Source: Pseudomonas fluorescens (GTDB lineage: Bacteria; Pseudomonadota; Gammaproteobacteria; Pseudomonadales; Pseudomonadaceae). Taken from it: a stretch of DNA of 64,000 nt. Numbering within the stretch: position 1 is the first letter of the stretch; every line of letters begins with the position of its first letter. This document shows positions 42,231-62,920 of the stretch, piece after piece. The position numbers were made by a program, and so were the translations under genes. Location: positions 3,100,001 to 3,164,000 of the forward strand of contig NZ_CP015225.1 in assembly GCF_001623525.1 (NCBI RefSeq), read 5' to 3'. The notes beneath the pieces were generated by a model. That model was given only the letters and a program-made list of their open reading frames with translations. It was not told where the DNA came from and searched no databases.

Positions 42231-42533
42231 ATGAAGAAGATCGAATCCAGCAAATTCCGATCCTGGCTGAAAAAGCTCAAGGATGGCACCGGCAGAGCTC
42301 GTATCACCTCACGGATCAATCGACTGATAGAGGGCTTACCTGGCGATGTCGCTCCAGTCGGCCATGGTATCAGTGAGCTACGAATTCACTACGGGCCTGG
42401 CTACAGGGTGTATTTCTACCAGCAGGGCGACGTGCTGGTGATTCTGCTCTGTGGCGGCGACAAAGGCAGTCAGAGCCGCGACATTGAAACCGCCCACCAG
42501 ATAATGCAGGCGTGGAGAGCACAAAATGACTGA
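42231..42533 (+). CDS. RelE/HigB-type toxin of a type II toxin-antitoxin pair
   Basis: A 100-residue basic protein of the phage-derived Gp49/HigB-like killer group: FRSWLKKLKDGTGRARITSRI at 10-30, then ELRIHYGPGYRVYFYQQGD near 50-70 and LLCGGDKGSQSRDIETA near 75-90. Such toxins cleave mRNA at the ribosome. It is followed by an antitoxin gene overlapping by 8 bases; toxin-first order is typical of HigBA. The 5' region is more AT-rich than the backbone. Confidence 0.85.
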   Translation: MKKIESSKFRSWLKKLKDGTGRARITSRINRLIEGLPGDVAPVGHGISELRIHYGPGYRVYFYQQGDVLVILLCGGDKGSQSRDIETAHQIMQAWRAQND

Positions 42534-42825
42534 GACTTTTACAGAATTTGACCCCGCAGAATACCTCAGTACTCCCGAAGCCATCGCGGAGTTCATGAGC
42601 GATGCTCTGGAAACCGGCGATGCAAGTTACATCGCCAAAGCGATGGGGGTAGTCGCGCGAGCTAAGGGGATGACCGAATTGGCCAGGGAAACAGGCCTGT
42701 CGCGCGAACAGCTATACCGTTCCTTCAGCGAGCATGGTAATCCCACTCTGAAAACACTCCTGGCGGTCATGAAGGCACTTGGTGTCGATATGACGGCTCG
42801 GCCACACACGCACACTGCGCCGTAA
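42526..42825 (+). CDS. HigA-like XRE antitoxin
   Basis: A 99-residue antitoxin. The HTH is visible as GMTELARETGLSREQLYRSFS followed by NPTLKTLLAVMKALGVDM, the XRE-type addiction-module pattern. It binds and neutralises the toxin and represses the operon as a family rule. It begins inside the end of the toxin gene (8-base overlap), so the two are translationally coupled. An IS4 element lies about 100 bases downstream. Confidence 0.87.
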   Translation: MTETFTEFDPAEYLSTPEAIAEFMSDALETGDASYIAKAMGVVARAKGMTELARETGLSREQLYRSFSEHGNPTLKTLLAVMKALGVDMTARPHTHTAP

Positions 42826-42931: not shown

Positions 42932-44270
42932 GGACAGATTCTGAGGAATCCCCGAATTTTCTTACGAAAAATCAAGAAGTTGGAATATTGAAGATACCTG
43001 CATGAGTCGGCAGCTTGTGTTGCACCACACAAAACAAGATCCCGACCCATGCAGGCCATCCGATTCTTACATAGCGCGCTCGCTCAAGCGCTCCCCGGTG
43101 TTCACTCTCGTCGCCTGAAAACGTTGATGTGTTGTGTCAGCGCATTGCTACGAGGACGTCAGCTCACGCTGACGGGGCTTGGTCGATTTTTACCGAGCAA
43201 AGCCTATCCCAAACACACCATCAAACGAGTGGATCGGTTGCTGGGTAATCGGCATCTGCAAACCGAGCGCCCGCTGTTTTACTGGGTCATGCTGCGAGCC
43301 CTGTTGGGCTCGCTCAAGCATCCATTGATCCTGGTTGATTGGTCACCCATTGATGCGGCTGGAGAGTTCTTTTTGTTGCGCGCAGCCATCCCTTTGGCGG
43401 GACGCTCATTCCCGATCTATGAGAGCGTTCATGAACGTGAGGGTTGTCCGAAATATCAAAAACGATTGCTACAAACGCTGGCCGAAATGCTTCCCGAAGA
43501 GTGCGTTCCGATCCTTGTGGCTGACGCAGGTTTTCGCCGGCCATGGATCAAAGCCGTCGAGGCGCAAGGCTGGTATTACGTGGGACGCGTGCGTAACCGG
43601 GATCTCTACCGAGCCGACGCAGACACTTGGCTACCCGTTAAAAACCTCTACGCTCTGGCATCGTCCTCACCGAAGTCATTGGGGCGGATCGAGATGACCC
43701 AAAGCGCTCCGCACATCATTCATCTGTACTGCGTTAGGCATTCGGCAAAAGGTCGCAAACACCAGCGTGTCACCGGATCAATCGCCAAAAACAAACTCAG
43801 CAGGCAATCGGCCAATCGTGAACGCGAGCCCTGGTTATTGGCTAGCAACCTGCCGGAGGATCAATGGAATCCATCGAAAATCGTGGCCATTTACAAACAG
43901 CGCATGCAGATAGAAGAAGGCTTCAGAGATGTAAAAAGTGAGTATTTTGGCGTAGGCGTCACTCGCCATCGGAGTCACTGCCCACGCCGAATCGAAGTAC
44001 TTTTGCTGATCTCGGCTCTGGCTAATTACATCATTTGTTTAACGGGGTTGCAGGCCCGCGAGGCGGGGCATGAGCGCCGTTTTCAAAGCAATAGCCTTAA
44101 ACGCCGACGAGTGTTATCGCTATGGCGGCTGGGCTTGGAATACTGGCGTAGCGGACGCGGCTCAAACTCTCGAAAAACTTTGGAAAGACTTGAGCACGCG
44201 TTGCGAGCAGAGGTACATCAAGAGGTGCAGACATTGGAATAGATTTGTGGGGATCCCTCAGAATCTGTCC
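42932..44270 (+). mobile_element. IS4-family insertion sequence with 22-bp terminal inverted repeats
   Basis: The left end GGACAGATTCTGAGGAATCC (42932 onward, 22 bases to 42953) is matched by the complement of 44249-44270 with one difference. The ~1.34-kb element holds one transposase gene. The ends may extend a few A/G bases outward. No clear target-site duplication was found. Confidence 0.85.
43049..44242 (+). CDS. IS4 family transposase
   Basis: A 397-residue DDE transposase. The catalytic aspartates are in LVDWSPID (about residue 97) and LVADAGFRRPW (about 160). The C-terminal glutamate is in YKQRMQIEEGFRDVK, which fits the IS4 signature Y-(2)-R-(3)-E-(6)-K exactly. The gene is full length with no frameshift, so the element could still be active. 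It is flanked by the 22-base inverted ends of the IS and separates the toxin-antitoxin pair from the CDI locus. Confidence 0.93.
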   Translation: MQAIRFLHSALAQALPGVHSRRLKTLMCCVSALLRGRQLTLTGLGRFLPSKAYPKHTIKRVDRLLGNRHLQTERPLFYWVMLRALLGSLKHPLILVDWSPIDAAGEFFLLRAAIPLAGRSFPIYESVHEREGCPKYQKRLLQTLAEMLPEECVPILVADAGFRRPWIKAVEAQGWYYVGRVRNRDLYRADADTWLPVKNLYALASSSPKSLGRIEMTQSAPHIIHLYCVRHSAKGRKHQRVTGSIAKNKLSRQSANREREPWLLASNLPEDQWNPSKIVAIYKQRMQIEEGFRDVKSEYFGVGVTRHRSHCPRRIEVLLLISALANYIICLTGLQAREAGHERRFQSNSLKRRRVLSLWRLGLEYWRSGRGSNSRKTLERLEHALRAEVHQEVQTLE

Positions 44271-44396: not shown

Positions 44397-44909
44397 CTAA
44401 TTTAGACCAAGCTCTCGCAACTGAATTTCGCTCGCAAAGTCTAATTCATCACTTTTAACCCTAGTCCCATCTGAATAATGAGAGTAACCACAGACACCAC
44501 ACTGACAAGCTAACAATCCATTATATCTACCTATAAAAATGCGTCCCCCATCAGACTTACATCTTGGACATTGCTCATCTACTTCGACCGTTATCAACTC
44601 CTCAATCGTATCGCGCAGAAATCTCGCAATCGCCTCTCCCTCCCGAGGCTGACGTTTCATGATAGTATTTTTAAAATTCATTAAATCCACCGCCGTAAAA
44701 CAAGAGCGCTCAACCGGCATTGCTCGCTCATTGACCTTCATAACCCTATCAAATCCATAAGTCGTGAACGGCTCACAGTCAAGATACTGATAATTACTCC
44801 GAATCCAGTGGAGTATTAATTCAAGAATTTGTCTCGAAGATGCCTCATCAGCCAGAGCTGAGACTGCCGACTGAAACTCACCCCAAACTTTAGTTGGTAG
44901 ACCACCCAT
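44397..44909 (-). CDS. Presumed CdiI immunity protein
   Basis: A 170-residue protein whose ATG overlaps the TGA of cdiA by one base (TGATG). The gene is clearly AT-richer than the chromosome. The N-terminal part is helical (TKVWGEFQSAVSALADEASS), and the C-terminal part contains a zinc-ribbon-like set of cysteines (CPRC near 120 and CQCGVCG near 140). I do not recognise the family. Position right after the CdiA C-terminal toxin, together with odd base composition, is the normal sign of a cognate immunity gene. Binding to the toxin is inferred. Confidence 0.7.
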   Translation of the reverse strand: MGGLPTKVWGEFQSAVSALADEASSRQILELILHWIRSNYQYLDCEPFTTYGFDRVMKVNERAMPVERSCFTAVDLMNFKNTIMKRQPREGEAIARFLRDTIEELITVEVDEQCPRCKSDGGRIFIGRYNGLLACQCGVCGYSHYSDGTRVKSDELDFASEIQLRELGLN

Positions 44910-47900
44910 CAAATACCCGCCTTAACAGGAAAAGTTGTTATCAAATTACCGGCTCTGTCGGTAAATACCTTTAACACAGAAGTGGGGACACCGCCATCCT
45001 TCAACGTAGTAGTACCAATCGTCCGCCCCACATCAACCGTTCTAACAAACTGGCCATCCGGCAGCCCCACAACCGGGGACTTCACCACAGATGTACTTTG
45101 CAAAATCCCTTTTAGCTCCTCCGGTGCAATAGTGAATACGGAGCGTGAATTAGATATTTCCCTATTAAAATGCCCTTCTAAAACATGTTCGAAACCCGCA
45201 GACACGGGTTTACCACTATCCCGAAGAGGTGTCGTTGCAGTACGGCCGTTGGCAATGTTTATGCGGGACTGTACGCGGCCCGGGACTGGGATAATGGGTT
45301 CACTTGGAACATCTTTAACCGGATGAGTATAAGGCATCCCCGCCTCAGCATCCGGCCCCCCAAGCGGCGTGCTGCCGTTCTTGCCCGTAGAAGCTCCCGT
45401 ACGTACGGCCTTGGCTTCCGTAAACTTATCCAAAGCCGCCTGAACCCTAGGCGAAATCCCTCCTTCGCCAACGCCAGCACCACGCGCGCCGCCTGAGGTC
45501 GGTATGACCAGCGTAGCCACGCTTGTTGCGTTTTCCCACGTGTCAGTAACCTTCGCCAAGTTCGTCAGGTCGTTCAACGCACGCTCAGTCAGGGTGTCCT
45601 TGTATTGCGTACAAGTCGCCGTCGTGCAATTGAGGTCATTCAGTGCGGTCAGCCCGCCCTGGATCGAGGTCAGCAAGGATTTCGCAAATGCACCACTGAC
45701 GGCCTTCTCCGACCAATCGGTGATTTCGTTACTGATCTGTTCGTACTTCCCCCCTTCCCACGTGTTTTTCTGACAAGTCTCGCTGCTACCACAGGCATTC
45801 ATGTCCCCGACAAAGTCACTCATATCGGGGTGATTGAGGTTGTTGTACTGGGTCGCGTTGCCAGCCACATACGCGCCGGTCTGTAGACTATTCGCATCAT
45901 CACCAGCCACAGCTGCGGCAGCCACCACACCCAGCAATTGCGAAGACATGAGCATAAGATGGTCACGGTTCTCCGGACTCATCTGAGCCGACATCCGCCG
46001 CAACTGGTTAGCGAACGTCTCATTCACTCCCGCTGCCATCGCACCGACAGCAAAGTCGCTGCCCGATGCTTCGGCGATCATGCCGCCTACCAAGGCGTGC
46101 AGGGCGATCTTCTCCGGACTGCCGGTCTTCAGGCCGAGGTTACCTACCTGGTCAAAGGAATAAGCCGCCAAGGTGTTGTAGACCGCCGACTGCAGGATGC
46201 CCGCTAACGTAACGTCCCGACCGAAAGCTTTGGCGATCGCAGCAGCAGATGCGTTGTTGATCAGTTGCTGACCCGCAAAATGGCTGACGGCTTCGATCGA
46301 ACTTAAGTCAATCACCGTCTTGCCATTGACCTGCTTGGTCATGGTCATATCGCCCAGGTAGTTCTCGGCGACACCGGCCGTGATGGCCGCGATGGCGGCG
46401 TTGGTAAGGCCGTCTTTGCTGGCTACCGCTTTCAACCCGGCACCTAGGTCGCCGTTATTGTTGATCGTCGCCACAGTGCCGGTGGTTGCCAGACTGGACG
46501 CACCAGCCAAGGCCCAGCCGCCAAGACCGGCACCAGCAGGGCCGAGCAGAACGGTCATCAGAATGGCAATTATCATCTGCGCTGCCGGCCCCAGGCCGGA
46601 GTTCGAGTACTTGAAGCTGGTATGGATCTCCTGCACTTGCCGCCAATCAACACCACCCTGCTCATCAAGCTCCTTGAGCCAAGCCAGTTTCGGATCGGCC
46701 TTGGCCATCGCATCGATGGATTCGCTGACCGTCTGCTTGTTGACTTGCAGCACGTCCGCATGAATCTTGCCCACCGCGCTGATGACCAAGTCGCCTTGAG
46801 CAGTCAGTTCACTCTGACGAACCGTCTCATCCGTGCGGCCGCTGCCCTTCATGCTGAACCACGCGGCGCTGGTCTTGCTTTTCTCGTGACTCTCCTGATG
46901 CAGGTCCTTGGCGCTCTCAAAGGTAATCGAGCCACCGCTTTGCAAGGTCAGGTCATTGCCACTGTTCAGCTTGGCTACTTGATAATGCTGATCCTCACCG
47001 GAAACCAAGGTCAGATCGCCCCCAGTGGTAATCTCACTCCCCACATGAGTCACCTTGGTCAGCTCATCACGCCGACTCTGTTTCTTCCCCCAGCTCCCCT
47101 TCTTCTTTTTCTCATACAGCGAATAATCGCTGTCCTGCGCGGCCAGAAGCGCCAGGCTTTCTCCAGCCACCAGATAAGCTTCATCACCGGCGTTGATACG
47201 GCTGGAGATAAGCGCCATATCCTTCCCGGCATCCAACCTCACGTCGCCTCCAGCACTGATAGCGCTGCCGATCTGTTTGACGTGGTCCTTTTGGGCCGTG
47301 ACCTTTTTCGACTTGTAGTAAGAGTGGGTTTCGTTGGCGCCGGAGGAGATTGTCATGTTCTCGTCGGCGGCCAGCGCTACATCGCGATCAGCACTGATCT
47401 GGCTCGCGATGGCGTTGAAGTCTCGACCGGCATTCACAACAACGTCGCGCCCTGCATCCACCTCCGAGCCCAATTGAGTGATCGAACTTCTACGGGTACC
47501 ACCGGTGTTAGCGGTCTGTTGTTGCGCAGAAACGATATTGACATCCCGCCCTGCATTGATTTGGGTGTCGCGTCCGCTGACCATGACGCTGCCAACGCTG
47601 TTGACGTCTCTACCAACTCCCATGGTCAGGTCGTTGGCCGCCTCGATACGCGAGGCGTTATCCGCATAGTCCTGCCGCTGCGTGTAGCCCTTGTTACTGA
47701 TACTTGCGGTGGTCAACGTGCGCTCGTTGATTATGTCGCCAACGATCGCATTCATGCTGACGTCACGCCCGGCGATGATGCCGCCGGATTTATTGACGAT
47801 GTCGTTGCCGGCCAACAGGTCAAGACGGTTGCCGGCTTCAATCAATCCGCTGTTCGTCAGGTTCTCGCCAGCGGATGCGGAGAGGTTATTCGTAGCCCGA

Positions 47901-50900
47901 AGCGTACCGGCGTTCTCTAGATCCTTGCCGGCAATCAACGTAACGTTCTGACCAGCAATCAATGCACCATTAGGCGCCAGACGATTATTGGCCTGGGCCA
48001 GGTACAGCACCGGCACCAGCACCTTTTCACCGTTCACTTCGTGCTCTTCGAGCCAGACGATGTCGTGGGTCAGGGCGGCAACTTGTTGGGCGGTGAGGGT
48101 GACGCCTACCGACAAGTTGAGGGCGTCCTTGCTGGCGATGGCGTTGTTCATCAGGTACTCGAACATCGCCTCATCGGAGGTCTGGCCGTCGATGAAGCGT
48201 TGGCCGGTGCGGGCGACGACGGCTTGCTGGATCAGACGTTGTTCAAACAAGCCATCGCCCAGGCGCTTGGCGCTGGTGTCGGCGTCGTAGCCGAGTTTCG
48301 TCAGCAAATAATCCGAGCTGGTGAATGACTTGAGGTCGGTAAGGACCGGGTTGGTCTCGATCAAGTATTTATGTGGCGTCGAGGCAACCGTCGTGCTTGG
48401 CAGGCCCGTTACCCGTGCCACCGTTTGGCCGTTGACAGGCGCTGGACCGCTTACCGAGGCGTCGGTTGGACGACTTACGCCGACCGGCGGCGTGCTCGAA
48501 GTGTCCAGTGCAATGTCGACGCCACGGGGGATGGTGCCGTCGAGCGAATGCCCTGGCAGTTGCGGCGTGCCTGTGGACGAGTCCGTTGGAGCGGTGACCT
48601 GAATGGCGGACGCGCCAGCCGTAACGCCACCGCTCTCACGATTCAACAACTGCACCTGTCGTTCGGCGGTGGAAACCTGGGTGGCATCGGCGATCTGGAT
48701 GTCGCGCACATTGGCGGTCGGGGCGGCGGTGGATCGATTCGATGCGCTCACGCTGGCGCCGCCGATTGTCCAGTTCTGCGACACGACCGGCGTCTGGGAG
48801 GATGACGCGTCGCTGGCGCCCTGCCCGCTCAGCCGGAACAGGCCGTTTTGCCCGGTGGGGAGGCTGAAGCCGGGGAGTGTCAGGGGGTTTATTTGTTGTT
48901 GGGCCAAGTCCGGTGGGAGTTGGCTGTTCAGGGTCACGACCGTGGTTTTGCCTGAGCCTGAGGCGGCGGTTGTGGTGTTGCGGGGCGACGTTGTTATGCC
49001 GGTGGCGAATGGGCGCTCCACGCCGTTGGTGATTTTGTTTGTTGCGGTAATGGAGACGTTGCCGCCGGCTTGGATGATGGCCGGGGCAAAATTATCGGAT
49101 GAGGTCGAGGAAAAAACCTCCTGCTTAAATGGAGTAAGTCTTTTTATAAAATCTGGCAGTTCGGTCCGAATACCCGCCGAATACTTAGAGCTATTGAAAA
49201 CTACTACTTTCGTCCCTCCACCGCTATAGCTATCAACCATGTTAACCACCGGACCAACAACCTGATAATACTCCCTATCTACAGGCTTGTTAGTGGTCAT
49301 AAAATTGCGTGACAGAACAAAACTTTCATCCCCCGCCGCATTCCAAAAACGAATATCTTTATTGTAGCCAGAGTCATTGTAAACATTATAGTCCACAACC
49401 CTCTGCAACTCATCCCCATTCTGGATATTATTATAATTTATATATTGATAACTCGTATAATCTCCCAAAGCCGTACCGGAATTTTCAAAATCATCGACAA
49501 TTATAGAAATATCACCTCCAGCTGTAGTAGTTGAGTTCGAATTAACAAATGATGCACCATCGATAGCTAGATTTCTTCCAGCACTCAACGAAGCCGACAC
49601 CGCGGTAGAGTCCCCGGACACCAAGACACGATACTGCTGCTTATAGACTAGGTAGTAGGGTATCTGTTCGCTTCCATATTGAGGAAGCGAATCACAACTG
49701 GAGCAACGAAACCCCAACGCCGAAGAATACAACTCCGCCTCAGTCTTAAAATCCCCGCGCTTATTAATAATTGAATCCGCATTAATGGAAAAATCCCGCC
49801 CACTCTCCATGGTGCCCGAATCATTCTCCATCAACGCCGACCGCCCCCCCAGGTCATTGCGCGCTACATCAATGTTCTCTAGGGCATAAACATCCGACTT
49901 ACGGTTGGTAAAACTCCCCACCCGCAATTTCATGTCCGCCCCACTGAACAAAAACCCACCTTGATCGTTCAGCAAGGTCGAAGCCGTCAGTTTCAAACCA
50001 TCTGCACCGGCAACCGTCCCATAGTTATTAATGGTGCCCGCAGTGATATTCAACGCACCCGCCGATGTCAGCCGCCCGTAATTGTTCAGGCTGCCCAGGC
50101 CACCGCGCCCACCGATCGTCGTGGTCCCGCCGCCGGTGATACTGGCCACACTACTCAAGTCGATCGCAGCGGCATCTACCGTCATGTCGCCCAGGCTGGA
50201 GACCCGGCCATTGCCGCTATACCGCCCAGTCAACTGCAAGCCCAGGCCACCATCACTGGCAATCAACCCGTTGTTAACCCAGTTCCCGCCTTTACCCTCC
50301 AACTGCGTCGAGGCCAGCAGTTGCCCAGTCTCGGTCTGGGTGAAATTGTTGACGTCGACCGTCAGCCGCCCGGCCTGGATGACGCTGGTGTTGGTCCAGG
50401 TGTCGGCTTTTAGCGTCAAGCCGCCGCGGGTGACGATGTCGCCGCCGGCGCCGGTGACGTTGGCCAGGGAGATGTCGAACGTGCCGTCACCCAGATGCAG
50501 TAATTGGCCGCCGCCATTGAGGAAGCTGTTGGCGGACAGGGTCAGGTGACTGTTGGCGCTTTCCAGCTTGCCATTGCGGTTGTCGAAGAGGCTGCCGATC
50601 TGGAAGTCGGTTTTGCCCGTTACCCCAAGGGCTCGCAGTTGGCCCGTCTGGTTATCGAGGCTGGCGGCACTCACCACCAAGGTGCTGTCGCTTTCCAGAA
50701 TGCCGCCACGGTTGATCAGGGCGCCGTCCAGGTCCAAATTGATGGCGTTGCCGGCGATCTGGCCGGCGGTGTTGTCCAGGCTGGCACCGGTGCCGCTGAC
50801 CTTGATCAGCCCAGAGGCATAGAGACCGCCACTGCGATTGTTCAGGCCGACGGTGTCGATGACGATATCGCCCGTCTGCGCGGCAATCCGGCCACCGTTG

Positions 50901-53900
50901 TTGTTCAGCCCGGCCAAGGCGCGCAGGCCAAGGCGTTGGCCTTGAATCACACCGCCCTTGTTGTTCACATCGAAGCCGTTGCGCAGCACCCCTACGGTTC
51001 TCGCCTCAAGGGCGCCCTTGAGGCTGGCGAGGGTGCCGCCACGGTTATCGATGTTGGCCGCGGTCACGTTTACATCGCCGGTTTGGGCGATGAGTTTGCC
51101 GCCCTGGTTGTCCAGGTCCGCGCGCAATTCAAGACTCACACCCGTCTGGCCTTGCATCTCGCCTTGGCCGTTGGCAAGGCTCGCGGCATTGAGTTCAACG
51201 TCCGCCGTCTGGCTGTAGATCAGCCCGTTGGTATGGTTCTGCACGGCTCCGGAGGCAGTGACCGTCAGCGCATTTTTCGCGGCGACAGTGCCGGTATAGC
51301 TGTTGTCCAGGGTGCCGGTGCCCAGGGTCATTTCGCCCTGGCTGACCAATTGACCGCCTTGGTTGTTGATCGCGGTCGCATCTTTAACCGTCAACGGACC
51401 AGCGCTGGCAAGCTTGGCGCCGTGGTTGTCCAGGGCCCCCTTGAGGTTGAGGGTCACGGCGGCGTTACCGATCAGGTTGCCGCCACTGTTGTCCACGGAG
51501 GTGCCGGTGAAGCTCAAAGCGTTTTGTGCGTTGACAGTACCGCCGACGTTGCCCAGGGTCATGGCCTTCATGACCAGAGTCGCGCCGCTGTCGATCAAGC
51601 CGCCTTGGGCGTTGTTCAGCAAACCGCCAGTGACGGTCAGGGTCTGGTCGGCGCCGCTGGACAGATTCCCGCCCTGGTTATCCAGGCTGGCAGCGCTGAC
51701 AGTGAGTTTTTTCTGGCCGACCAGCGCACCGGTAGCGCTGTTGAGCAGTGCCCCGCTGAGGGTGACGCCAACGTCTCCATTGCGGCTGGAGAGCGTGCCG
51801 TTGTTGCGGTTGTCCAGGCTGCTGCCACTGACCTGCAAGTCCTGCCATCCAGAGATCAAGCCGTTCTGGTTGACCAGGCTATCGCCATGAAGGCTCAGGT
51901 TCTGACTGCTGATCAGCTTGCCGCCGCTGTTATCGATCGTCTGGCCGCTGAGGTTGAAGCTCTGGCTGCTGGAGATTTCGCCACCCTGGTTATCAAGGTT
52001 GCGCAGGCCGTTGACGGTCAGCAAACCTTTGGCGGTGATCAGGCCGTTGCGATTGTTCAGGTCATGACCGCCGAGGTTCAGCGTCACGGCTTGTTCGCCC
52101 AGTAGACGTCCACCGTTTTGGGTCAGCGCCGCGAGGGTCAGGTTCATATCGCCCTTGGCCGACACTTCGCCGCCGTCGCTGGAGTCCAGCGAATCGGCGC
52201 CGAGGGTGAGTCTGGATTGGGCATTGATCAGGCCGTTGGCGCTGTTGTCCAGGGCCATGGCGTTGAGGACCAATGCACCGCCCGCCAACACGCTGCCACC
52301 CTGGTTGTTCAAATTGCCGCTGTTGAGTGTCAGCAACTGTGCGGCGCTGATCAGGCCTTGGGCCTGGTTGTCTATTTCTTGGCCAACCGTCAGGTCGAGC
52401 TTGCCACGACTGGTCAGGGTGCCGCCGTTGTTGTTCAGGCTTTGCGCAAGGACATCGACGCTGGCCGCGCCGATCATGCCTTTGACGTTGTTCAGCGCCT
52501 GGGCGATGCGCAGCGTGAGGCCCTGGTTGCTGAGCAGCCGGCCGCCATCGTTGTTGAGGTTTTGTGCCGCCAGGGTGAAGGCTTGGGCGCTGGAGATTTC
52601 ACCGCCCTGGTTGTTCACGCCGAGGAGGTTTTTCAGCAGCAACGTACCGGGGGCGTTGATCAGGCCGTTCTGGTTGTTGAGCTGGCCATTGTTCATGTCC
52701 AGGCTCAGCGAGGTGTTGCTGAACAACTGGCCGCCCTGTTGATCCAGGCCGGAAACCGAGGCAGTCAGTGCGCCCTGGCTGCCGATGCGGCCGCCGTCCT
52801 GGTTGGTGACCTGGGCCGCCTTGAGGTTCAGTGTGCTGCCGCTGTTGAGGCGTCCGTTCTGGCTGTTGTTGAACGCGCCGGTAGAGATGTTCACCGTGCC
52901 TTTGCCGCTGATGTTGCCCTGCTGACGGTTGTCCAGGGCCGTGCTGCTGAGCAGCAACGCGCCGTCGGTCACCAGTTCGCCGCCCTGGTTATCGAGGCGG
53001 CCCAGGCTTTTAACCGTCAGGTTGGCCGCGCTGGACAAGCTGCCGCCGCTGTTGCCCAGGTTGGCGGCGCTGACGTCGAGGGTACCTTCGCTGCTGAGTT
53101 GACCCTGGGTGTTGATCAGGTCGCCACTGAGGTCGATGCGCTGGTTCTGCTGGCTGACCAGATAGCCGCCGCTGTTGTCCAGGGAACCGCCGTCGAGGCT
53201 CAATTGTGTCTTGGCACTGAGCAGGCCTTTGGTCCGGTTGAGCAGCTTGTCCACGGTGAGCTTCAGGGTTTGCCCGGCGAATATTTGGCCGCTGTCGCTG
53301 TTGTCGAGGTTTTTGCTCACCAGTGTGACGCCGGTGTTACCGCTCAGCTCGCCGCCACGGTTGTCGAGGTCGTCAACGTTGATATCCAGCGCTTTTGTCG
53401 CGCCGATCAAGCCGGCCTGGCGGTTGTCGAGGCTCGACGCTTGCAACGTCAGGTCCGTGGTGCTGACCAGCGTGCCTTGACGGTTATCCAGCGCAGTGAC
53501 GGTGACGTCGAGCCCGGCCTTGCCGGCGATACTGGCAGCGCGGTTATCCAGGCGATCAGCGTTCAATACCAGTGCGCCGTCGGCGATCAGCGAACCGCGC
53601 TGGTTGTCGAGCAACGTATCGACCTTCACATCGAGCTGATCGCGACTGCTGATCAGCCCATCGCTGTTATCCAGGCTGGCGCTGTGGCTGTCCACGGACG
53701 CAGCCGAAACAATCCCTTTGGCGTTGTTCAGCGCCTGCACGGTTCGAAGCATCAGGGCTTGGTTGCTAAGCAGTTTGCCGCCGCTGTTATCGAGGTTCCG
53801 CGCGGCCAGGGTGAACGCTAGCCGGCTGGAAATTTCACCGCCCTGGTTGTTGACGTCCTTGAGGTTGCTCAGCAGCAACAGACCCGCGGCATTGATCAGG

Positions 53901-56900
53901 CCGCCCTGGTTGTTCAACTGGCCTTGGTTCATGTCCAGGCTGACGCTGGTGTTGCTGAACAACTCTCCTTGCTGTTGATCCAGCCCGGTGACCGATGCAG
54001 TCAGAGCCTGACTGCTGGCGATACGGCCGTCGGCGTTGTTCACCTGAGTGGCGGTGAGCGCGAGGGTGTTGCCCGAGGTCAAGCGCCCGCCCTGGCTGTT
54101 GTTGAGAGCGCCGGTGCTGACTTGGGTGGCGGCGCTGCCCGAGACCAGGCCTTTCTGGCTATTGTCCAGGCTGGCGCTTTTGAGGCTCAGGCCGGCGTCG
54201 GTGCTGATGGAGCCACCCTGGTTGATCAGCCCACCCTGGCTGACAATGGACAACGCGCCGGCACTGCCGAGGCTACCGGCGGTGTTATCGAGGCTGCCGG
54301 CGTCGACGCTCAGTTCACCTTCGCTGCTGATCAGGCCTTTGTTATTCAACAATGCGTTGTCGAGTGTGATCACCAAAGCATTCAGGCTACTGAGTGCGCC
54401 ACCGCTGTTGTCCAGCGTACTGCCCGTGAGCATGAGTCGGCCTTGGGCGTGGACCAGGCCCTTGGTCTGGTTGATCAGTTGCGCGACTTTCAATTCAAGC
54501 GCGCTGCCTGCAATCAGTTTGCCGCCGTCGCTGTTGTCCAGGCGTTGAGCGCCAACCTTGACGTCCAGCCCTGCGGACAGTTCGCCCGCCCGGTTATCGA
54601 TCTGCTCAACCTGCAAATCCAGCGCTTTTGTGGTGCCGACCAATCCACCGTTGCGGTTATCCAGAACGCTGCCGGTCAGGCTCAGGTTGCCTTGTGATAC
54701 CAACGCGCCTCCCTGCTGTTGCAGGGTATCGATCCGCGCGGTGAGGTCGGTTTGGCTGGAGATGCGGCCAAGGGCGTTTTGCACCTCATTGGCCTTCAAG
54801 TTCAGCGGGCCTACGCTGCTCAGCAAACCACCGCTGTTGTCCAGCCGCGTGACTTCGACGCCGACGCCGGCTTTGCCGGTAATGATCCCGTTGCTGCGGT
54901 TGTCCAGTTGCGCGACCGTCAGTTGCAGCGCTCTGTCGGCGCGGATGTTGCCGCCACGGTTGTCGAGCGAATCGCTGCGCACGGTCAGCAGGTCGACCCC
55001 GGTGAGACGACCGCCGCGGTTGTCGAGGCTACCGGTTTGCAGGTCAAGTGCGCCCTTGGCGATCACTTCGCCCTGGCCCTGGTTGTCCAGCAGGCCACTG
55101 ATGCGTGCGCTCAGGCTGCCGTCGCTGATCACTTGGCCAGCGTTGCCGTTGTTCAGGCTCGCGGCCTGGATGTCCACGACCTTGCCCGAACCGAGCACAC
55201 CCTCGCGGTTGTCCAGCGCGCCGCCCAGGCTGATGTTCAAGGCGTTATCGCCCAGCACCTGACCATTGCGGTTGTTCAGGGTCATCGCGTTGAGCCGGGT
55301 CAGACCGGCACTGGACACTTCACCCTCCAGGTTGGTCAGCGTTCCATCGACGTCCACACTCAGGTCGGCGTCGCTGCTCAAGGTGCCGCTGCTGTTGTCC
55401 AGGCTGGCTGCGCGCACGGCAAGGCCATTGGCCGAGACCACTCCTTGGGCGTTGTTCAACGCCTGGGCAATGGTCAGGTTGAGGCCCTGCTTGCTGACGA
55501 CTTTGCCGGCGCTGTTGTCCAGGCTGTTTGCATTCAGGCTGAAGGACTTGTCGCTGGAGATCTCGCCGTCACGGTTGTTCACAGCGGCGAGGTTGTTCAA
55601 CAGCAGCGCGCCGGGGGTGCTGATCAGCCCGCCCTGGTTGTTCAATTGCCCATGGTTGAGGTCAAGGGAAAGGCTGGTGTTGCTGACCAATTGGCCGTTC
55701 TGTTGCTCCAGCCCGGTGACGCTGGCGTTCAGGGCCTTGGCGCTGGCGATGCGACCGGAGGTGTTGTTCACCTGACCGGCCTTCAGTAGCAGCGTGTCAC
55801 CGCTGATCAGGCTGCCACCCAGGTTGCTCAGGGTCGCGGCGCTGTCGATGCTCAACGCACCGACGCTGGTCAACTGACCCGCATCGTTATTGATACCGGC
55901 GGCTTTGACGCTGGCGGTGGCGTCGCTTTTGAGGCTGCCTTGGGCATTGAGCAGTTGCCCGCGCAGGTCCAGGTTCATCCCTCGCTGGGCATACAGCGAC
56001 CCCTGGCGGTTGTCGAGTTGGCCGGCGTTGACCGCCAGGACGCCTCGGGTCGAGATCAATCCGAGGCTTTGGTTGGTCAGGCGTTCGAGCGTCAGGCGCA
56101 GATCACCATAGGCAATTACTTTGCCGCTGTTGCTGTTGTCCAGCTCGGTGCCGGTCAGCGTCAGGACACCCTGGCTCGACAGCTCACCGCTGCGGTTATC
56201 CAACTTGCCTACATCGAGGCTGGCGGCCTGGGTTGTGGTGACGACGCCGTTCTGACGGTTATCCAGGCTCGCCGCATTGAGCGTCAGCAGCCCCGCCGAA
56301 GACAGCAATCCCGCCTGATTCAGCAACTGCGCCGAAATGCTGGCGGTGAGCGCACCGTCACTGAGCAAACGGCCTGCGGTGTTATCCACCGACGCAGCGC
56401 TGAGCTGCACGCTCTTGCTTGAAGTGAGCCGGCCGCTGCGGTTGTTCACTTGGCCGCTGGCATTAATATCCAACCCCTGCCCTGCCGCGACCAGGCCAGC
56501 CACGTTGTCCAGCGACGCAACGCGCAATGTAACGCCGCTCAAGCCGGTGAGTTCGCCACCGTTGTTATTCAACTGACTGACATTGGCCGTCAGGTTGCCG
56601 TTGCTGCTGACCGTGCCCTGGGTGTTGAGCAGCGTGTTGGCGGTGACGTTCAGCGTATTGCTGCTGAGCACCCGTCCTTTACTTTGATTGTCCAAGGTCG
56701 CGGCGTTGACCGTGGCGGCCTGCCCGGCGCTCAGCGTCCCACCCTTGTTGCTCAGCGTCTGCGCAACGTCGACTGTGAGGTTACGACTGGCAACAACGCT
56801 CTTACCGTTGTTACTCAGACTCTGCGCCTCCAGGCTCACGTCCCCCGCCGCGTTACGGGTGTTATCCGCGTTGACCCCGGCCTCGATAATGCCGTTGTTG

Positions 56901-57994
56901 GTCAACTGCCCACCCGCGTTCAGCGTAATGCTGTCCCGCGCCGCAAGACTCTGCTGGTTGCTCAAGTTGCCCTGGGTCTGGGCGTTCAACCTGGTGCCGG
57001 CGTAGGCCGGACCTCGGGCATCAAGGCTCGCGGCTTTGACATTGATGGCGCCACTGGCCGAGGTCTCTGCCAGGCTCAGGCGGCCGTTGGCATCGAGCTG
57101 AATGTCGCCGCCGCTGGCGATCAGTTTGCCGTCCAGTTTCACGCCGACGCCAGCTTCGGTGCCCACCAGCTTGATAGTGCCTGCGTACATGCCGCCCAAG
57201 GCCGAGGAGTCGATGGCCAATTCGGGCTTGGCACTGCCATCATCGGCCCGGGCAGTGGCGTTGAGGGTATTGGCGTTAACGTCGTTGCGCCCGGCGACGA
57301 TGGTCAGGTTCTTGGCCTGGATCTCGGCATTGATCCTGGCACTGCGAGTAATGATTTCGAAACTGTCGACGTTGTTGGCGTTGAGGCCCGCGCCTTCGAT
57401 GGCGACGCTGCCCTGGTCAACCTGGTAGCGGCTCACCTGACCGTTTTCGATGATCGGCTTGCCCGTGGTCAGGGTCGCCTTTGGGGCATTGATGAAACCG
57501 CAGCCATTACAGCTGATGCCGTAAGGGTTGGCGACGATGACGTGGGCCGACTGCCCTGCCACTTCGGTGTAGCCGCGCAACTGGCTCGGGTTGCCGCCAT
57601 TGACTTCGTTGAGAATGGTGGTGGCGGCCGTGCCGTTGAGGTTTGGGTTGCCGAGGATGATCCCGCCCAGTTGCGTGGACTGGGTTCGGTTTGTGGCGTT
57701 GTTGAGGATTACGCCGTTGCTGCCGACGTTGTAGTCCTTGAATTGGTTGTGGGACAGACCGCTGCCGTTGGGTTTGGCGATGTTGACGATAGGCACACCA
57801 TTGCCTGCCTGGCTGAGGCCGGTGCCCGGTGCGCTGACCACAATGCCGTCGGCCTGGGCCCACAGCGGTTGCCAGAACATGACGTTGGCCAACAGGAACG
57901 CCAGGCCGCGCTTGGGCATGCCGCAGAACCGGTCACGGGCGTGCAGGGCTGCGGAAGGTTGGCGGGCCAGGAAGGCGTATTGGCGGTCGTCCAT
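44909..57994 (-). CDS. cdiA: CdiA-like two-partner-secreted contact-dependent inhibition effector
   Basis: A 4361-residue TpsA. Signal peptide (ANVMFWQPLWAQA), then a TPS/haemagglutination domain (~50-300) with the secretion motif NPYGISCNGCGFINAP. A very long FHA-1 repeat field with Asn/Leu/Asp repeats runs to ~2700, then a tyrosine-rich, AT-rich segment (~2750-2970; VYKQQYRVLV, YTSYQYINYNN) that is a candidate receptor-binding domain. Next come FHA-2-type haemagglutinin repeats (~3300-3750), a DUF637 region (~3850-4020) and a pretoxin stretch with YNNLNHPDMS in place of VENN. The toxin (last ~100 residues) has AGFEHVLEGHFNR and ends LITTFPVKAGI. The ATG at 57994 was chosen over a TTG at 58015. 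cdiB precedes it by 24 bases. Confidence 0.9.
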   Translation of the reverse strand: MDDRQYAFLARQPSAALHARDRFCGMPKRGLAFLLANVMFWQPLWAQADGIVVSAPGTGLSQAGNGVPIVNIAKPNGSGLSHNQFKDYNVGSNGVILNNATNRTQSTQLGGIILGNPNLNGTAATTILNEVNGGNPSQLRGYTEVAGQSAHVIVANPYGISCNGCGFINAPKATLTTGKPIIENGQVSRYQVDQGSVAIEGAGLNANNVDSFEIITRSARINAEIQAKNLTIVAGRNDVNANTLNATARADDGSAKPELAIDSSALGGMYAGTIKLVGTEAGVGVKLDGKLIASGGDIQLDANGRLSLAETSASGAINVKAASLDARGPAYAGTRLNAQTQGNLSNQQSLAARDSITLNAGGQLTNNGIIEAGVNADNTRNAAGDVSLEAQSLSNNGKSVVASRNLTVDVAQTLSNKGGTLSAGQAATVNAATLDNQSKGRVLSSNTLNVTANTLLNTQGTVSSNGNLTANVSQLNNNGGELTGLSGVTLRVASLDNVAGLVAAGQGLDINASGQVNNRSGRLTSSKSVQLSAASVDNTAGRLLSDGALTASISAQLLNQAGLLSSAGLLTLNAASLDNRQNGVVTTTQAASLDVGKLDNRSGELSSQGVLTLTGTELDNSNSGKVIAYGDLRLTLERLTNQSLGLISTRGVLAVNAGQLDNRQGSLYAQRGMNLDLRGQLLNAQGSLKSDATASVKAAGINNDAGQLTSVGALSIDSAATLSNLGGSLISGDTLLLKAGQVNNTSGRIASAKALNASVTGLEQQNGQLVSNTSLSLDLNHGQLNNQGGLISTPGALLLNNLAAVNNRDGEISSDKSFSLNANSLDNSAGKVVSKQGLNLTIAQALNNAQGVVSANGLAVRAASLDNSSGTLSSDADLSVDVDGTLTNLEGEVSSAGLTRLNAMTLNNRNGQVLGDNALNISLGGALDNREGVLGSGKVVDIQAASLNNGNAGQVISDGSLSARISGLLDNQGQGEVIAKGALDLQTGSLDNRGGRLTGVDLLTVRSDSLDNRGGNIRADRALQLTVAQLDNRSNGIITGKAGVGVEVTRLDNSGGLLSSVGPLNLKANEVQNALGRISSQTDLTARIDTLQQQGGALVSQGNLSLTGSVLDNRNGGLVGTTKALDLQVEQIDNRAGELSAGLDVKVGAQRLDNSDGGKLIAGSALELKVAQLINQTKGLVHAQGRLMLTGSTLDNSGGALSSLNALVITLDNALLNNKGLISSEGELSVDAGSLDNTAGSLGSAGALSIVSQGGLINQGGSISTDAGLSLKSASLDNSQKGLVSGSAATQVSTGALNNSQGGRLTSGNTLALTATQVNNADGRIASSQALTASVTGLDQQQGELFSNTSVSLDMNQGQLNNQGGLINAAGLLLLSNLKDVNNQGGEISSRLAFTLAARNLDNSGGKLLSNQALMLRTVQALNNAKGIVSAASVDSHSASLDNSDGLISSRDQLDVKVDTLLDNQRGSLIADGALVLNADRLDNRAASIAGKAGLDVTVTALDNRQGTLVSTTDLTLQASSLDNRQAGLIGATKALDINVDDLDNRGGELSGNTGVTLVSKNLDNSDSGQIFAGQTLKLTVDKLLNRTKGLLSAKTQLSLDGGSLDNSGGYLVSQQNQRIDLSGDLINTQGQLSSEGTLDVSAANLGNSGGSLSSAANLTVKSLGRLDNQGGELVTDGALLLSSTALDNRQQGNISGKGTVNISTGAFNNSQNGRLNSGSTLNLKAAQVTNQDGGRIGSQGALTASVSGLDQQGGQLFSNTSLSLDMNNGQLNNQNGLINAPGTLLLKNLLGVNNQGGEISSAQAFTLAAQNLNNDGGRLLSNQGLTLRIAQALNNVKGMIGAASVDVLAQSLNNNGGTLTSRGKLDLTVGQEIDNQAQGLISAAQLLTLNSGNLNNQGGSVLAGGALVLNAMALDNSANGLINAQSRLTLGADSLDSSDGGEVSAKGDMNLTLAALTQNGGRLLGEQAVTLNLGGHDLNNRNGLITAKGLLTVNGLRNLDNQGGEISSSQSFNLSGQTIDNSGGKLISSQNLSLHGDSLVNQNGLISGWQDLQVSGSSLDNRNNGTLSSRNGDVGVTLSGALLNSATGALVGQKKLTVSAASLDNQGGNLSSGADQTLTVTGGLLNNAQGGLIDSGATLVMKAMTLGNVGGTVNAQNALSFTGTSVDNSGGNLIGNAAVTLNLKGALDNHGAKLASAGPLTVKDATAINNQGGQLVSQGEMTLGTGTLDNSYTGTVAAKNALTVTASGAVQNHTNGLIYSQTADVELNAASLANGQGEMQGQTGVSLELRADLDNQGGKLIAQTGDVNVTAANIDNRGGTLASLKGALEARTVGVLRNGFDVNNKGGVIQGQRLGLRALAGLNNNGGRIAAQTGDIVIDTVGLNNRSGGLYASGLIKVSGTGASLDNTAGQIAGNAINLDLDGALINRGGILESDSTLVVSAASLDNQTGQLRALGVTGKTDFQIGSLFDNRNGKLESANSHLTLSANSFLNGGGQLLHLGDGTFDISLANVTGAGGDIVTRGGLTLKADTWTNTSVIQAGRLTVDVNNFTQTETGQLLASTQLEGKGGNWVNNGLIASDGGLGLQLTGRYSGNGRVSSLGDMTVDAAAIDLSSVASITGGGTTTIGGRGGLGSLNNYGRLTSAGALNITAGTINNYGTVAGADGLKLTASTLLNDQGGFLFSGADMKLRVGSFTNRKSDVYALENIDVARNDLGGRSALMENDSGTMESGRDFSINADSIINKRGDFKTEAELYSSALGFRCSSCDSLPQYGSEQIPYYLVYKQQYRVLVSGDSTAVSASLSAGRNLAIDGASFVNSNSTTTAGGDISIIVDDFENSGTALGDYTSYQYINYNNIQNGDELQRVVDYNVYNDSGYNKDIRFWNAAGDESFVLSRNFMTTNKPVDREYYQVVGPVVNMVDSYSGGGTKVVVFNSSKYSAGIRTELPDFIKRLTPFKQEVFSSTSSDNFAPAIIQAGGNVSITATNKITNGVERPFATGITTSPRNTTTAASGSGKTTVVTLNSQLPPDLAQQQINPLTLPGFSLPTGQNGLFRLSGQGASDASSSQTPVVSQNWTIGGASVSASNRSTAAPTANVRDIQIADATQVSTAERQVQLLNRESGGVTAGASAIQVTAPTDSSTGTPQLPGHSLDGTIPRGVDIALDTSSTPPVGVSRPTDASVSGPAPVNGQTVARVTGLPSTTVASTPHKYLIETNPVLTDLKSFTSSDYLLTKLGYDADTSAKRLGDGLFEQRLIQQAVVARTGQRFIDGQTSDEAMFEYLMNNAIASKDALNLSVGVTLTAQQVAALTHDIVWLEEHEVNGEKVLVPVLYLAQANNRLAPNGALIAGQNVTLIAGKDLENAGTLRATNNLSASAGENLTNSGLIEAGNRLDLLAGNDIVNKSGGIIAGRDVSMNAIVGDIINERTLTTASISNKGYTQRQDYADNASRIEAANDLTMGVGRDVNSVGSVMVSGRDTQINAGRDVNIVSAQQQTANTGGTRRSSITQLGSEVDAGRDVVVNAGRDFNAIASQISADRDVALAADENMTISSGANETHSYYKSKKVTAQKDHVKQIGSAISAGGDVRLDAGKDMALISSRINAGDEAYLVAGESLALLAAQDSDYSLYEKKKKGSWGKKQSRRDELTKVTHVGSEITTGGDLTLVSGEDQHYQVAKLNSGNDLTLQSGGSITFESAKDLHQESHEKSKTSAAWFSMKGSGRTDETVRQSELTAQGDLVISAVGKIHADVLQVNKQTVSESIDAMAKADPKLAWLKELDEQGGVDWRQVQEIHTSFKYSNSGLGPAAQMIIAILMTVLLGPAGAGLGGWALAGASSLATTGTVATINNNGDLGAGLKAVASKDGLTNAAIAAITAGVAENYLGDMTMTKQVNGKTVIDLSSIEAVSHFAGQQLINNASAAAIAKAFGRDVTLAGILQSAVYNTLAAYSFDQVGNLGLKTGSPEKIALHALVGGMIAEASGSDFAVGAMAAGVNETFANQLRRMSAQMSPENRDHLMLMSSQLLGVVAAAAVAGDDANSLQTGAYVAGNATQYNNLNHPDMSDFVGDMNACGSSETCQKNTWEGGKYEQISNEITDWSEKAVSGAFAKSLLTSIQGGLTALNDLNCTTATCTQYKDTLTERALNDLTNLAKVTDTWENATSVATLVIPTSGGARGAGVGEGGISPRVQAALDKFTEAKAVRTGASTGKNGSTPLGGPDAEAGMPYTHPVKDVPSEPIIPVPGRVQSRINIANGRTATTPLRDSGKPVSAGFEHVLEGHFNREISNSRSVFTIAPEELKGILQSTSVVKSPVVGLPDGQFVRTVDVGRTIGTTTLKDGGVPTSVLKVFTDRAGNLITTFPVKAGI

Positions 57995-58018
57995 GTTCAG
58001 GTCTCGTTGCAGCAAAAT

Positions 58019-59725
58019 TTAGAGGAGTACGTCCACGCGGAAGTAGATCGGCGCTTCGCGCTCGCTCAGGGCATCCGGGCGTTCCAGGGAATGGGCGAAG
58101 GTGACGCTGGCGCTCAGGTGCTCACCACGGGCGAACAGCTCCAGCGAGTTGCTCGACATGCGCCCGTGCTGGCCGCCGTTGTAGCGGTCGCCGCGAATCA
58201 CGCCCTGGTCATAGCCGAGGCTGGTGCCGTATTCGGCGAACACCGGGCGCAGCCACTCCAATGTCACCGGACGGCTCCAGCGCAAGTCGTTGCGCCAGTA
58301 GCCGCCGCTGTCGCCAGACAGCGTCTGGTCTTTGTAGCCGCGAATCGACGACAGGCCGCCCAGGCTCATGCGCTGGGGGCTGAACAGCACGTCTTCGCTG
58401 CGCTGGCCGGTCATCAGGCTGCTGAAGCTGAAGGACTCGCCACCCAGCATGAAGGGCTGCAAATAGCTGAGGGTCGCGGTGTATTTGCGATAGCGCGCAT
58501 CCGGTACGCCAGGGCCCGGGTCGTGATCGCCCTGGGCATCGAGAGCACCGATACCTTGTTGCATGCCCAGGTCGAGGTTGACGAAGGCATTGCCGATTCG
58601 CCGGCCATGGTTGATGCCGAACTGCGCCTCGCTGATGCGATTGCTGCTCTCGCGAAGCTTGCTGTCTTCGATGAAGTTGTTGGTGCGCAGGTACGAAAGG
58701 CCGGTGTTGAGGGAAGTCTTGCTCAGCGCATCGCGATGGATCACCCGCTCGACCCGCAACTGATGGTTCTGGCTGTCGCCGGTCTGCTTGAAGTTGAAAC
58801 CGTTGGCCGGAATTTGCGAGCGGTATTCGCTCTGGCTGTAGGTGTAGCTGACGTTCCACCAGCCCCAAGGCAGGTTGTAATAAAGCATGGCGTTGTTGGA
58901 GGTGTGCTGGTGGTCGGTCATCGCGTCATGACCGCCGCGCAACATCAACTGGTCGGCCAGGCCCAGCGGGCTGTCCCACTCGAAACTGCTGCCCCACTGC
59001 TGCTCACCGGTGCTGCGCTGGCCGTCGTTGCTGCGCGACAGGCCGGCGCGCCAGGGCTTTTTCGGCTCGTTGGTGACCCGCACTTCACTGCCACCGACTT
59101 CCTGGCCGGGGGTCAGCTCCATTTTGGCCTGGTTCGACGGCAGGCGATTGAGCTGATCCACCATCTGCTCGATCTCCCGCAGGTTGACCAGGTCACCGGC
59201 CTTGCCGGGAAAAGCCATTCCCAATTCACGGTCCGACAGCTTGCTGTCCTCGGTCCCCTTCAGGCCTTCAAGTCGCCCTTCCACCACCAGCACGCTCAGA
59301 TGCCCACCGGACAAATCCTGCTGCGGCAGATAGGCACGACTGGTGACCAGCCCCTTTTCGATGTAGTGGTCGGTGATGACTTTGAGCAGTTCGTTAAGCT
59401 GCCGCACACCCAGGCATTGGCCGGTGTAGGGCTTGAGCAGTCGTTCGCGCTCACTGGCGGACAGGCTGTCGGCCCCCTTGAGTTCGATGGTCTTGATCGG
59501 GAAGCAACGGGTATCGACAGGTGCGGTCGGCTGGGTCGGCTTCGCCTCCTGGCCGGGCAGGTCCTTGAGTTCCTCCAGGCGACGACGCTGCTCTTCGAGC
59601 AAACGGTTCTGTCGCTCGCGGATCAGGTCCGTCTCGCCTGGAGTGGGGGCGGCGCGAGCCAGGGTCAGCGGAGAAAGGCACAGCACAGCCACGCACAACC
59701 TCGCCCAAAAGGCGGGTGAGGACAT
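58019..59725 (-). CDS. cdiB: CdiB-like TpsB outer-membrane transporter
   Basis: A 568-residue exporter of the ShlB/FhaC/HecB family. After a signal peptide it has an N-terminal Arg/Glu-rich helix (about 35-55), two POTRA domains (about 75-150 and 150-225) and a 16-strand barrel. Barrel landmarks are SLGGLSSIRGYKDQ near 455, the conserved VRGY-type loop motif (here IRGY), and the terminal FRVDVLL. It secretes the CdiA protein encoded just downstream, as expected for two-partner secretion. An inverted repeat lies upstream at 59748. Confidence 0.92.
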   Translation of the reverse strand: MSSPAFWARLCVAVLCLSPLTLARAAPTPGETDLIRERQNRLLEEQRRRLEELKDLPGQEAKPTQPTAPVDTRCFPIKTIELKGADSLSASERERLLKPYTGQCLGVRQLNELLKVITDHYIEKGLVTSRAYLPQQDLSGGHLSVLVVEGRLEGLKGTEDSKLSDRELGMAFPGKAGDLVNLREIEQMVDQLNRLPSNQAKMELTPGQEVGGSEVRVTNEPKKPWRAGLSRSNDGQRSTGEQQWGSSFEWDSPLGLADQLMLRGGHDAMTDHQHTSNNAMLYYNLPWGWWNVSYTYSQSEYRSQIPANGFNFKQTGDSQNHQLRVERVIHRDALSKTSLNTGLSYLRTNNFIEDSKLRESSNRISEAQFGINHGRRIGNAFVNLDLGMQQGIGALDAQGDHDPGPGVPDARYRKYTATLSYLQPFMLGGESFSFSSLMTGQRSEDVLFSPQRMSLGGLSSIRGYKDQTLSGDSGGYWRNDLRWSRPVTLEWLRPVFAEYGTSLGYDQGVIRGDRYNGGQHGRMSSNSLELFARGEHLSASVTFAHSLERPDALSEREAPIYFRVDVLL

Positions 59726-62554: not shown

Positions 62555-62920
62555 AGGTTTCATTCCTTTGAATTAACGGCTACCACAGGCCGTGGATACG
62601 TCCTGACAGGCGTAGTTATTCTATTGTTCAATGCGAGCTGAACTGGATGTTCTGGAAGTCATTGACTGCATCGCGACAGACATATTGTTAGCCTCCTAGC
62701 TAATGAAGCACTTACATCCTGTGTGAAGCAGCGACCCGGCGTTGCAGGCATAGGGCTACCAGTCGCCTTTCTCCATGGTAGACGACGGTTTAATATCGGC
62801 TAGGGAAATTCTGAAAAAAGGCACCCTGCGAAGCGGCAGCCAGCATGGCGGCCAATGAACTTTCCACCCAACAACGGCCTCAACCCATTACCTGCCCAAC
62901 AAGGAATATGAGGCCCAGCC
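62555..62920. other. Intergenic region without a recognisable gene
   Basis: A 366-base divergent gap. It presumably holds promoters for both neighbours; no repeat, RNA or operator stood out. Confidence 0.45.

Follow-up and report, generated by a model that had tools for sequence, protein, structure and literature searches.

A contact-dependent inhibition locus of Pseudomonas fluorescens with a predicted BECR-fold toxin and a putative zinc-ribbon immunity protein

What does a contact-dependent inhibition (CDI) locus deliver to neighbouring cells when neither its toxin nor its immunity protein matches a catalogued family? The question is raised by three genes at 44397-59725 of the window, a 64,000-nucleotide stretch of Pseudomonas fluorescens DNA that is part of a 6.92-Mb genome assembled as a single contig. 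Our explanation, which we hold to be very probably right as a whole, is that they form a complete CDI system with a BECR-fold RNase toxin and a zinc-ribbon immunity protein, CdiI, the two constituting an exchangeable pair. An earlier interpretation made from the letters alone (the sequence-only reading) had proposed a complete cdiB-cdiA-cdiI locus here, and the open reading frame listing places all three genes where it put them, on the minus strand. The spacing it described can be read directly: 24 bases separate cdiB from cdiA, and the cdiA stop (44911-44909) shares one base with the cdiI ATG at 44909 (TGATG). CdiA residues are numbered below from an upstream TTG at 58015, the start used by the reading-frame program (protein P0002), and not from the ATG at 57994.

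58019..59725, minus strand: cdiB, outer-membrane two-partner secretion (TPS) transporter, 568 amino acids (Pfam ShlB, POTRA_2, POTRA_3)
44909..57994, minus strand: cdiA, 4361 amino acids counted from the ATG at 57994 (open reading frame; Pfam TPS, Fil_haemagg, Fil_haemagg_2; TIGR01731)
44397..44909, minus strand: cdiI, putative immunity gene, 170 amino acids, ATG at 44909 (open reading frame; relatives; structure model)
44912..45304, minus strand: swappable toxin module, residues 4238-4368, predicted BECR-fold nuclease (breakpoint; model; structural matches)
45305..46030, minus strand: pre-toxin region, residues 3996-4237, kept when the toxin is swapped (comparison with P0176, P0178 and P0177)
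46031..46507, minus strand: DUF637 domain, residues 3837-3995 (PF04830, 5.3e-21 in the genome search, 4.8e-20 in the C-terminal scan)
46850..47080, minus strand: best Fil_haemagg_2 stretch (FHA-2 region), residues 3646-3722 (PF13332, 2.9e-14)
49000..50000 (approximate edges), minus strand: low-G+C region varying among close CdiA relatives (G+C 0.461; drop in identity)
57074..57817, minus strand: TPS secretion domain, residues 67-314 (PF05860, 4.8e-56)

Several features place the locus among CDI systems. CdiB is a two-partner transporter of the ShlB/FhaC type, with matches over the cut-off to ShlB (4.8e-96), POTRA_2 (2.5e-25) and POTRA_3 (5.8e-19); such proteins export CdiA to the cell surface. 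CdiA carries the TPS domain that had been claimed for it together with filamentous haemagglutinin (FHA) repeats (PF05860, PF05594, PF13332, TIGR01731), Fil_haemagg matching 25 stretches (1.5e-78) and TIGR01731 47. The DUF637 domain, also foreseen, was not listed when full-length CdiA was run through hmmscan and became clear once the C-terminal 695 residues were scanned alone. The C-terminal toxin differs between otherwise closely similar CdiA proteins (P0176-P0178 against P0002), and the small gene directly behind cdiA is tied to the toxin type. G+C content is 0.623 across the CdiA body but drops to 0.492 for the toxin and further to 0.435 for cdiI, in line with the small AT-rich gene of the sequence-only reading. 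The PT-VENN pre-toxin domain of the E. coli type gave no match to CdiA at E up to 1, the one tested feature that does not fit. Some classes of CDI system in Pseudomonas lack VENN (PMC4725963), and its absence thus rules out the E. coli subtype and not CDI.

Altogether these sequence-level features support the view that the system is an ordinary, complete CDI locus such as Mercy et al. described for Pseudomonas in 2016 (PMC4725963), sharing with theirs the cdiB-cdiA-cdiI order, the TPS domain and the FHA repeats. A DUF637 domain ahead of the toxin is common to this locus and to classes I, IV and V of that study, and the low G+C of toxin and immunity genes recurs in PAO1. In contrast to those systems, this locus has, judged by eye, the motif NETFA at the place of NEALV, which makes it only class-V-like, and its relatives exchange only the last 131 residues, well downstream of this motif. 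Given how common CDI loci are, finding one here is no surprise.

The exchange of the C terminus can be located. Of the proteins found with the CdiA tail, P. viciae, P. ogarae and P. brassicacearum supply those that resemble it most in the part ahead of the toxin, and the host therefore probably belongs to their section of the P. fluorescens complex. The P. viciae protein (P0176) is 92% identical to the window CdiA across 638 residues and a metagenome protein (P0178) 89% identical across 636, and both matches stop at residue 4237; the P. ogarae protein (P0177) is 81% identical over a longer aligned stretch, with a visibly different tail beyond about the same point. A partial P. brassicacearum protein (P0099) has the same toxin as the window as far as it extends. 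This comparison places the exchange point in this lineage at the toxin itself, about 240 residues past the end of DUF637. The toxin had been placed in the last ~110 residues; its C-terminal position holds, and the module swapped among relatives is larger, about 131 residues. Two further proteins (P0100 and P0098) carry the same toxin behind other linkers, and in the toxin-bearing tails compared the common part starts at or just before a 'VQSRINIANG'-like segment. On our explanation, toxin and immunity together are one exchangeable module, with a swap point at about CdiA residue 4237, that occurs behind several delivery proteins.

What, then, is the toxin? The sequence-only reading had guessed a nuclease of the BECR fold group and had proposed profile searches of toxin and CdiI and a structure prediction of the pair. 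The profile searches returned no family for the toxin or for CdiI in Pfam, NCBIfam or PADLOC, and structure was predicted for each chain singly. The model of the last 121 CdiA residues is of high confidence (predicted local distance difference test, pLDDT, 92.1; predicted template modelling score 0.84), and a structure search with it finds the BECR fold. Among the 12 best-scoring VIA-align rows, nine can be identified as RNases from their titles or the literature; 2pd0, 7m5f and 8ey4 were not placed on that basis. In the family as described by Zhang et al. (PMC3482391), a conserved histidine is paired with a C-terminal threonine or serine, and both are present here, in H35 near the N terminus and T/S113 on the C-terminal strand, matched by motif and aligned range and not by superposed coordinates.

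45170..45172, minus strand: codon of H35 of the 121-residue toxin domain, invariant (45/45 representatives), candidate catalytic residue
45041..45043, minus strand: codon of R78, invariant (49/49 representatives), candidate catalytic or phosphate-binding residue
44936..44938, minus strand: codon of T113 in a T/S-x-x-P motif on the last strand (T or S in 47/47; secondary structure of the model)

P116 of the same motif is likewise conserved (47/47); these counts leave out P0176-P0178, whose CdiA tails lack this toxin, and the aligned rows include fragments. The guess is thus supported by the predicted structure and the conserved residues, and H35, R78 and T113 are likely to be the active-site set. 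RNase activity would follow the precedent of the structural neighbours. A locus of CDI type whose toxin is instead a DNase, a ParE-type gyrase poison or some other non-RNase protein on a BECR-like fold is the alternative that survives best, and we consider it unlikely: BECR folds do include the gyrase inhibitor ParE (PMC9086364), and the candidate active-site residues differ from the three histidines of the Bacillus toxin YxiD, whereas the predominance of RNases among the highest structural matches and the histidine and T/S pattern (PMC3482391) argue for an RNase.

Named families were considered for the toxin and set aside. Ntox50 (PF15542) is structurally nearest, yet the window toxin does not match its model, one of 23 toxin-family members doing so at E 0.13, and the HxVP motif of Ntox50 is absent, the family having T/S-x-F/Y-P instead. 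No Ntox50 member was found in 185 genomes, nor in 14 control genomes, and hence these counts make no statement on absence. Bacterial EndoU (PF14436), assigned to P. aeruginosa PA2462 (PMC4725963), gave no Pfam match at E up to 1. When solved structures were searched by sequence, no convincing relative of the toxin or CdiI emerged (best E 0.014), and the searches with the toxin listed no CDI toxin entry in the PDB; a family unlisted in the structure searches is not thereby ruled out.

The sequence-only reading had called the immunity family unrecognised, which holds for the profile libraries but misses a recognisable zinc ribbon at the C terminus. The CdiI model is again of high confidence (pLDDT 93.9), and two CX2C knuckles lie within a zinc-ribbon fold that would bind zinc.

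44460..44591, minus strand: C-terminal zinc ribbon of CdiI, residues 107-150 (C114, C117, C137, C140)

All four cysteines are invariant in 20 of 20 proteins (19 loci and the window), with little else conserved; 53 CdiI-family proteins were found, the window's own included, and the conserved length is 170 residues. The structure search covered well only residues 107-155. Matches to a transglutaminase family (PF09017) and to S27ae were dropped as far below the cut-offs, the weak S27ae match nonetheless pointing to the zinc ribbon. CdiI would thus be acidic and helical, its zinc ribbon having a structural role and being of the Rpb9/TFIIS C-terminal kind, here attached to the end of a helical domain of 106 residues in a protein linked to a toxin.

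How tightly is this gene bound to the toxin? Among 194 genomes, the source genome included, the toxin occurs in 7 and the immunity gene in 6, and in all 6 the immunity gene adjoins a toxin or toxin remnant. A toxin match in one genome (G009) and divergent copies in two others (G003 and G044) have no such immunity gene alongside. A scan of genome contigs yielded 21 toxin loci, from Pseudomonas, Stutzerimonas, Massilia, Herbaspirillum, Cupriavidus, a Burkholderiaceae metagenome-assembled genome (MAG), Stenotrophomonas, Neisseria dentiae, Acinetobacter, two Paenibacillus, and MAGs labelled Lachnospiraceae, Oscillospiraceae, Polyangia, Deltaproteobacteria and uncultured bacterium; from these names we take the phyla to be Pseudomonadota, Bacillota and Myxococcota. 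The next open reading frame matches the immunity profile in 19 of the 21 (E 1.2e-97 to 9.4e-8, computed for a file of about 20 proteins). The real test lies in the distant matches, because the near Pseudomonas forms are much like the sequences from which the profile was built. In the two loci without a match, the frame ends early (L044) or the toxin is probably no relative (L047, 25% identity). In the 18 pairs compared, from the window and from 17 loci with L044-L047 set aside, every toxin is basic (isoelectric point 8.4-11.7) and every immunity protein acidic (4.6-6.4). Pairwise distances of toxins and immunity proteins correlate (Pearson 0.93, Spearman 0.83, the latter reached in 0 of 5000 permutations), with shared ancestry uncontrolled.

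These data bear on whether the small gene is an immunity gene at all. Rpb9/TFIIS-type ribbons are best known from transcription factors, and the structure searches barely covered the N-terminal 106 residues, so one could imagine a zinc-ribbon regulator that travels with the toxin. We regard this as improbable: in 19 of 21 loci, which differ in carrier and phylum, the gene follows the toxin immediately; in the 194 genomes every copy seen has a toxin or toxin remnant beside it; its product is acidic where the toxin is basic; and its position is the one held by immunity genes in such systems. FHA-type adhesins also have a TPS domain and repeats. Still more improbable is that CdiA is mainly an adhesin with a decayed toxin-immunity passenger: P. 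aeruginosa CDI systems contribute to adhesion and biofilm too (PMC4725963), but the 4361-residue frame is unbroken, the candidate active-site residues are intact, the toxin is swapped between relatives and the pair is kept together across phyla.

We envision a scenario in which CdiB carries CdiA to the cell surface, where a variable middle region probably binds a receptor on the neighbouring cell. A candidate for this is the low-G+C stretch at 49-50 kb (0.461 against 0.623 in the CdiA body): at residues 2800-2999, identity to P0176 and P0177 drops to 51-64%, while the remaining blocks stay at 72-98%, the exceptions being a stretch with gaps around residue 600 and the two final blocks. Analogy with other CdiA proteins suggests that this low-G+C stretch is probably where the receptor is bound. 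Upon contact, the C-terminal toxin would be released and enter the cytosol, aided by the pre-toxin region that is kept in toxin swaps and is presumed to serve cytoplasm entry. Once inside, it would act as a BECR-fold RNase, small and basic, whose substrate is most likely tRNA. Sister cells would survive because CdiI binds the toxin, probably over its active site, and so protects them.

The same toxin is found on other carriers. Besides CdiA-type proteins (for example L036, L039 and L041), it ends RHS/teneurin-type proteins identified by Pfam (L040), by a match below the curated cut-off (L043), by eye (L042) or by precomputed domains (P0174 and P0175). In the Burkholderiaceae MAG (L030:4411-6366) it is the C terminus of a frame with a TadE-like N terminus (6.4e-11), an arrangement suggestive of a polymorphic toxin on a Tad-pilus-type carrier; a Tad-like apparatus has been linked to contact-dependent killing (PMC8460266). 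One carrier (L038) has a 463-residue helical N terminus that looks WXG/LXG-like by eye and has no Pfam match. In P. aeruginosa PA7 (L029:5473-10409) the pair occupies a short frame, and another CdiA-like frame follows whose end is a divergent relative of this toxin, as if orphan modules were strung together. A P. aeruginosa plasmid record encodes an immunity protein 48% identical to that of the window. The scan of viral contigs found no relative; two short, unannotated Listeria phage records (OR848241.1 and OR846895.1) contain a toxin domain 43% identical.

Is the pair new? Toxin family and zinc-ribbon immunity proteins appear to be uncatalogued in Pfam, NCBIfam, PADLOC and the open-access literature, where we found no description of the pair; most subscription papers lie outside that scope. 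Surveys of P. aeruginosa CdiA C-terminal groups reportedly may include a P. aeruginosa form of the toxin. In the part of Table 1 of PMC4725963 considered, none of the C-terminal types named is the window toxin, but about half have no predicted function, so that a match among these is possible. A Stenotrophomonas maltophilia survey (PMC11893273) has groups of unknown function, which were not compared with the window toxin. For many CDI toxins it was only the structure that revealed a BECR nuclease, and their immunity proteins share little (PMC9086364); one more toxin type at such a locus is therefore to be expected. The Ntox50 pair YxiD-YxxD of Bacillus subtilis 6633 (PDB 9V8I, PMC12700104) differs from ours: the toxins are 15% identical, YxiD has three histidines and HxVP where the window family has T/SxxP at the corresponding end, and YxxD has an Sm-like fold in place of a zinc ribbon. 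The Yersinia kristensenii toxin (PDB 5E3E) is 16% identical with no sequence relationship detected; its immunity protein is not among the listed CdiI matches, a relationship still being possible. With moderate confidence, we lean towards an uncatalogued polymorphic BECR nuclease toxin family with a dedicated zinc-ribbon immunity class, spread over three phyla and at least three carriers (CDI, Rhs and TadE-type, probably also WXG-type). If so, neutralisation would depend on a metal-stabilised immunity protein, and self-protection could fail under zinc starvation. The useful part of the locus is a small pair with a predicted toxin active site and a predicted immunity metal site; because it occurs behind several delivery proteins and in three phyla, it is well suited to asking how such modules move between delivery systems and whether immunity can depend on metal supply.

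The surroundings hold further elements. Directly past cdiI, on the opposite strand, lies a DDE_Tnp_1 transposase gene (PF01609, 2.1e-17; 43049-44242, plus strand), so the locus probably ends next to an insertion sequence. Two overlapping small genes at 42231-42825 (plus strand), one Gp49-like and one for an HI1420-type antidote with a helix-turn-helix, form a HigBA-like toxin-antitoxin pair, a second conflict module near the transposase gene and the CDI locus. Upstream of cdiB, at 60050-62563 (minus strand), is a gene for a secreted-looking protein of 837 amino acids that is weakly similar to BNR/DUF6242 and has a haem-like motif, CMGCH, in its C-terminal part. Elsewhere in the same genome, a second CDI-like region (L026, C1:3962000-3976000) has a 1088-residue frame with DUF637 and Fil_haemagg_2 that overlaps a 1527-residue frame, with two pairs of equal-length small reading frames (192 and 161 amino acids) alongside, possibly duplicated modules.
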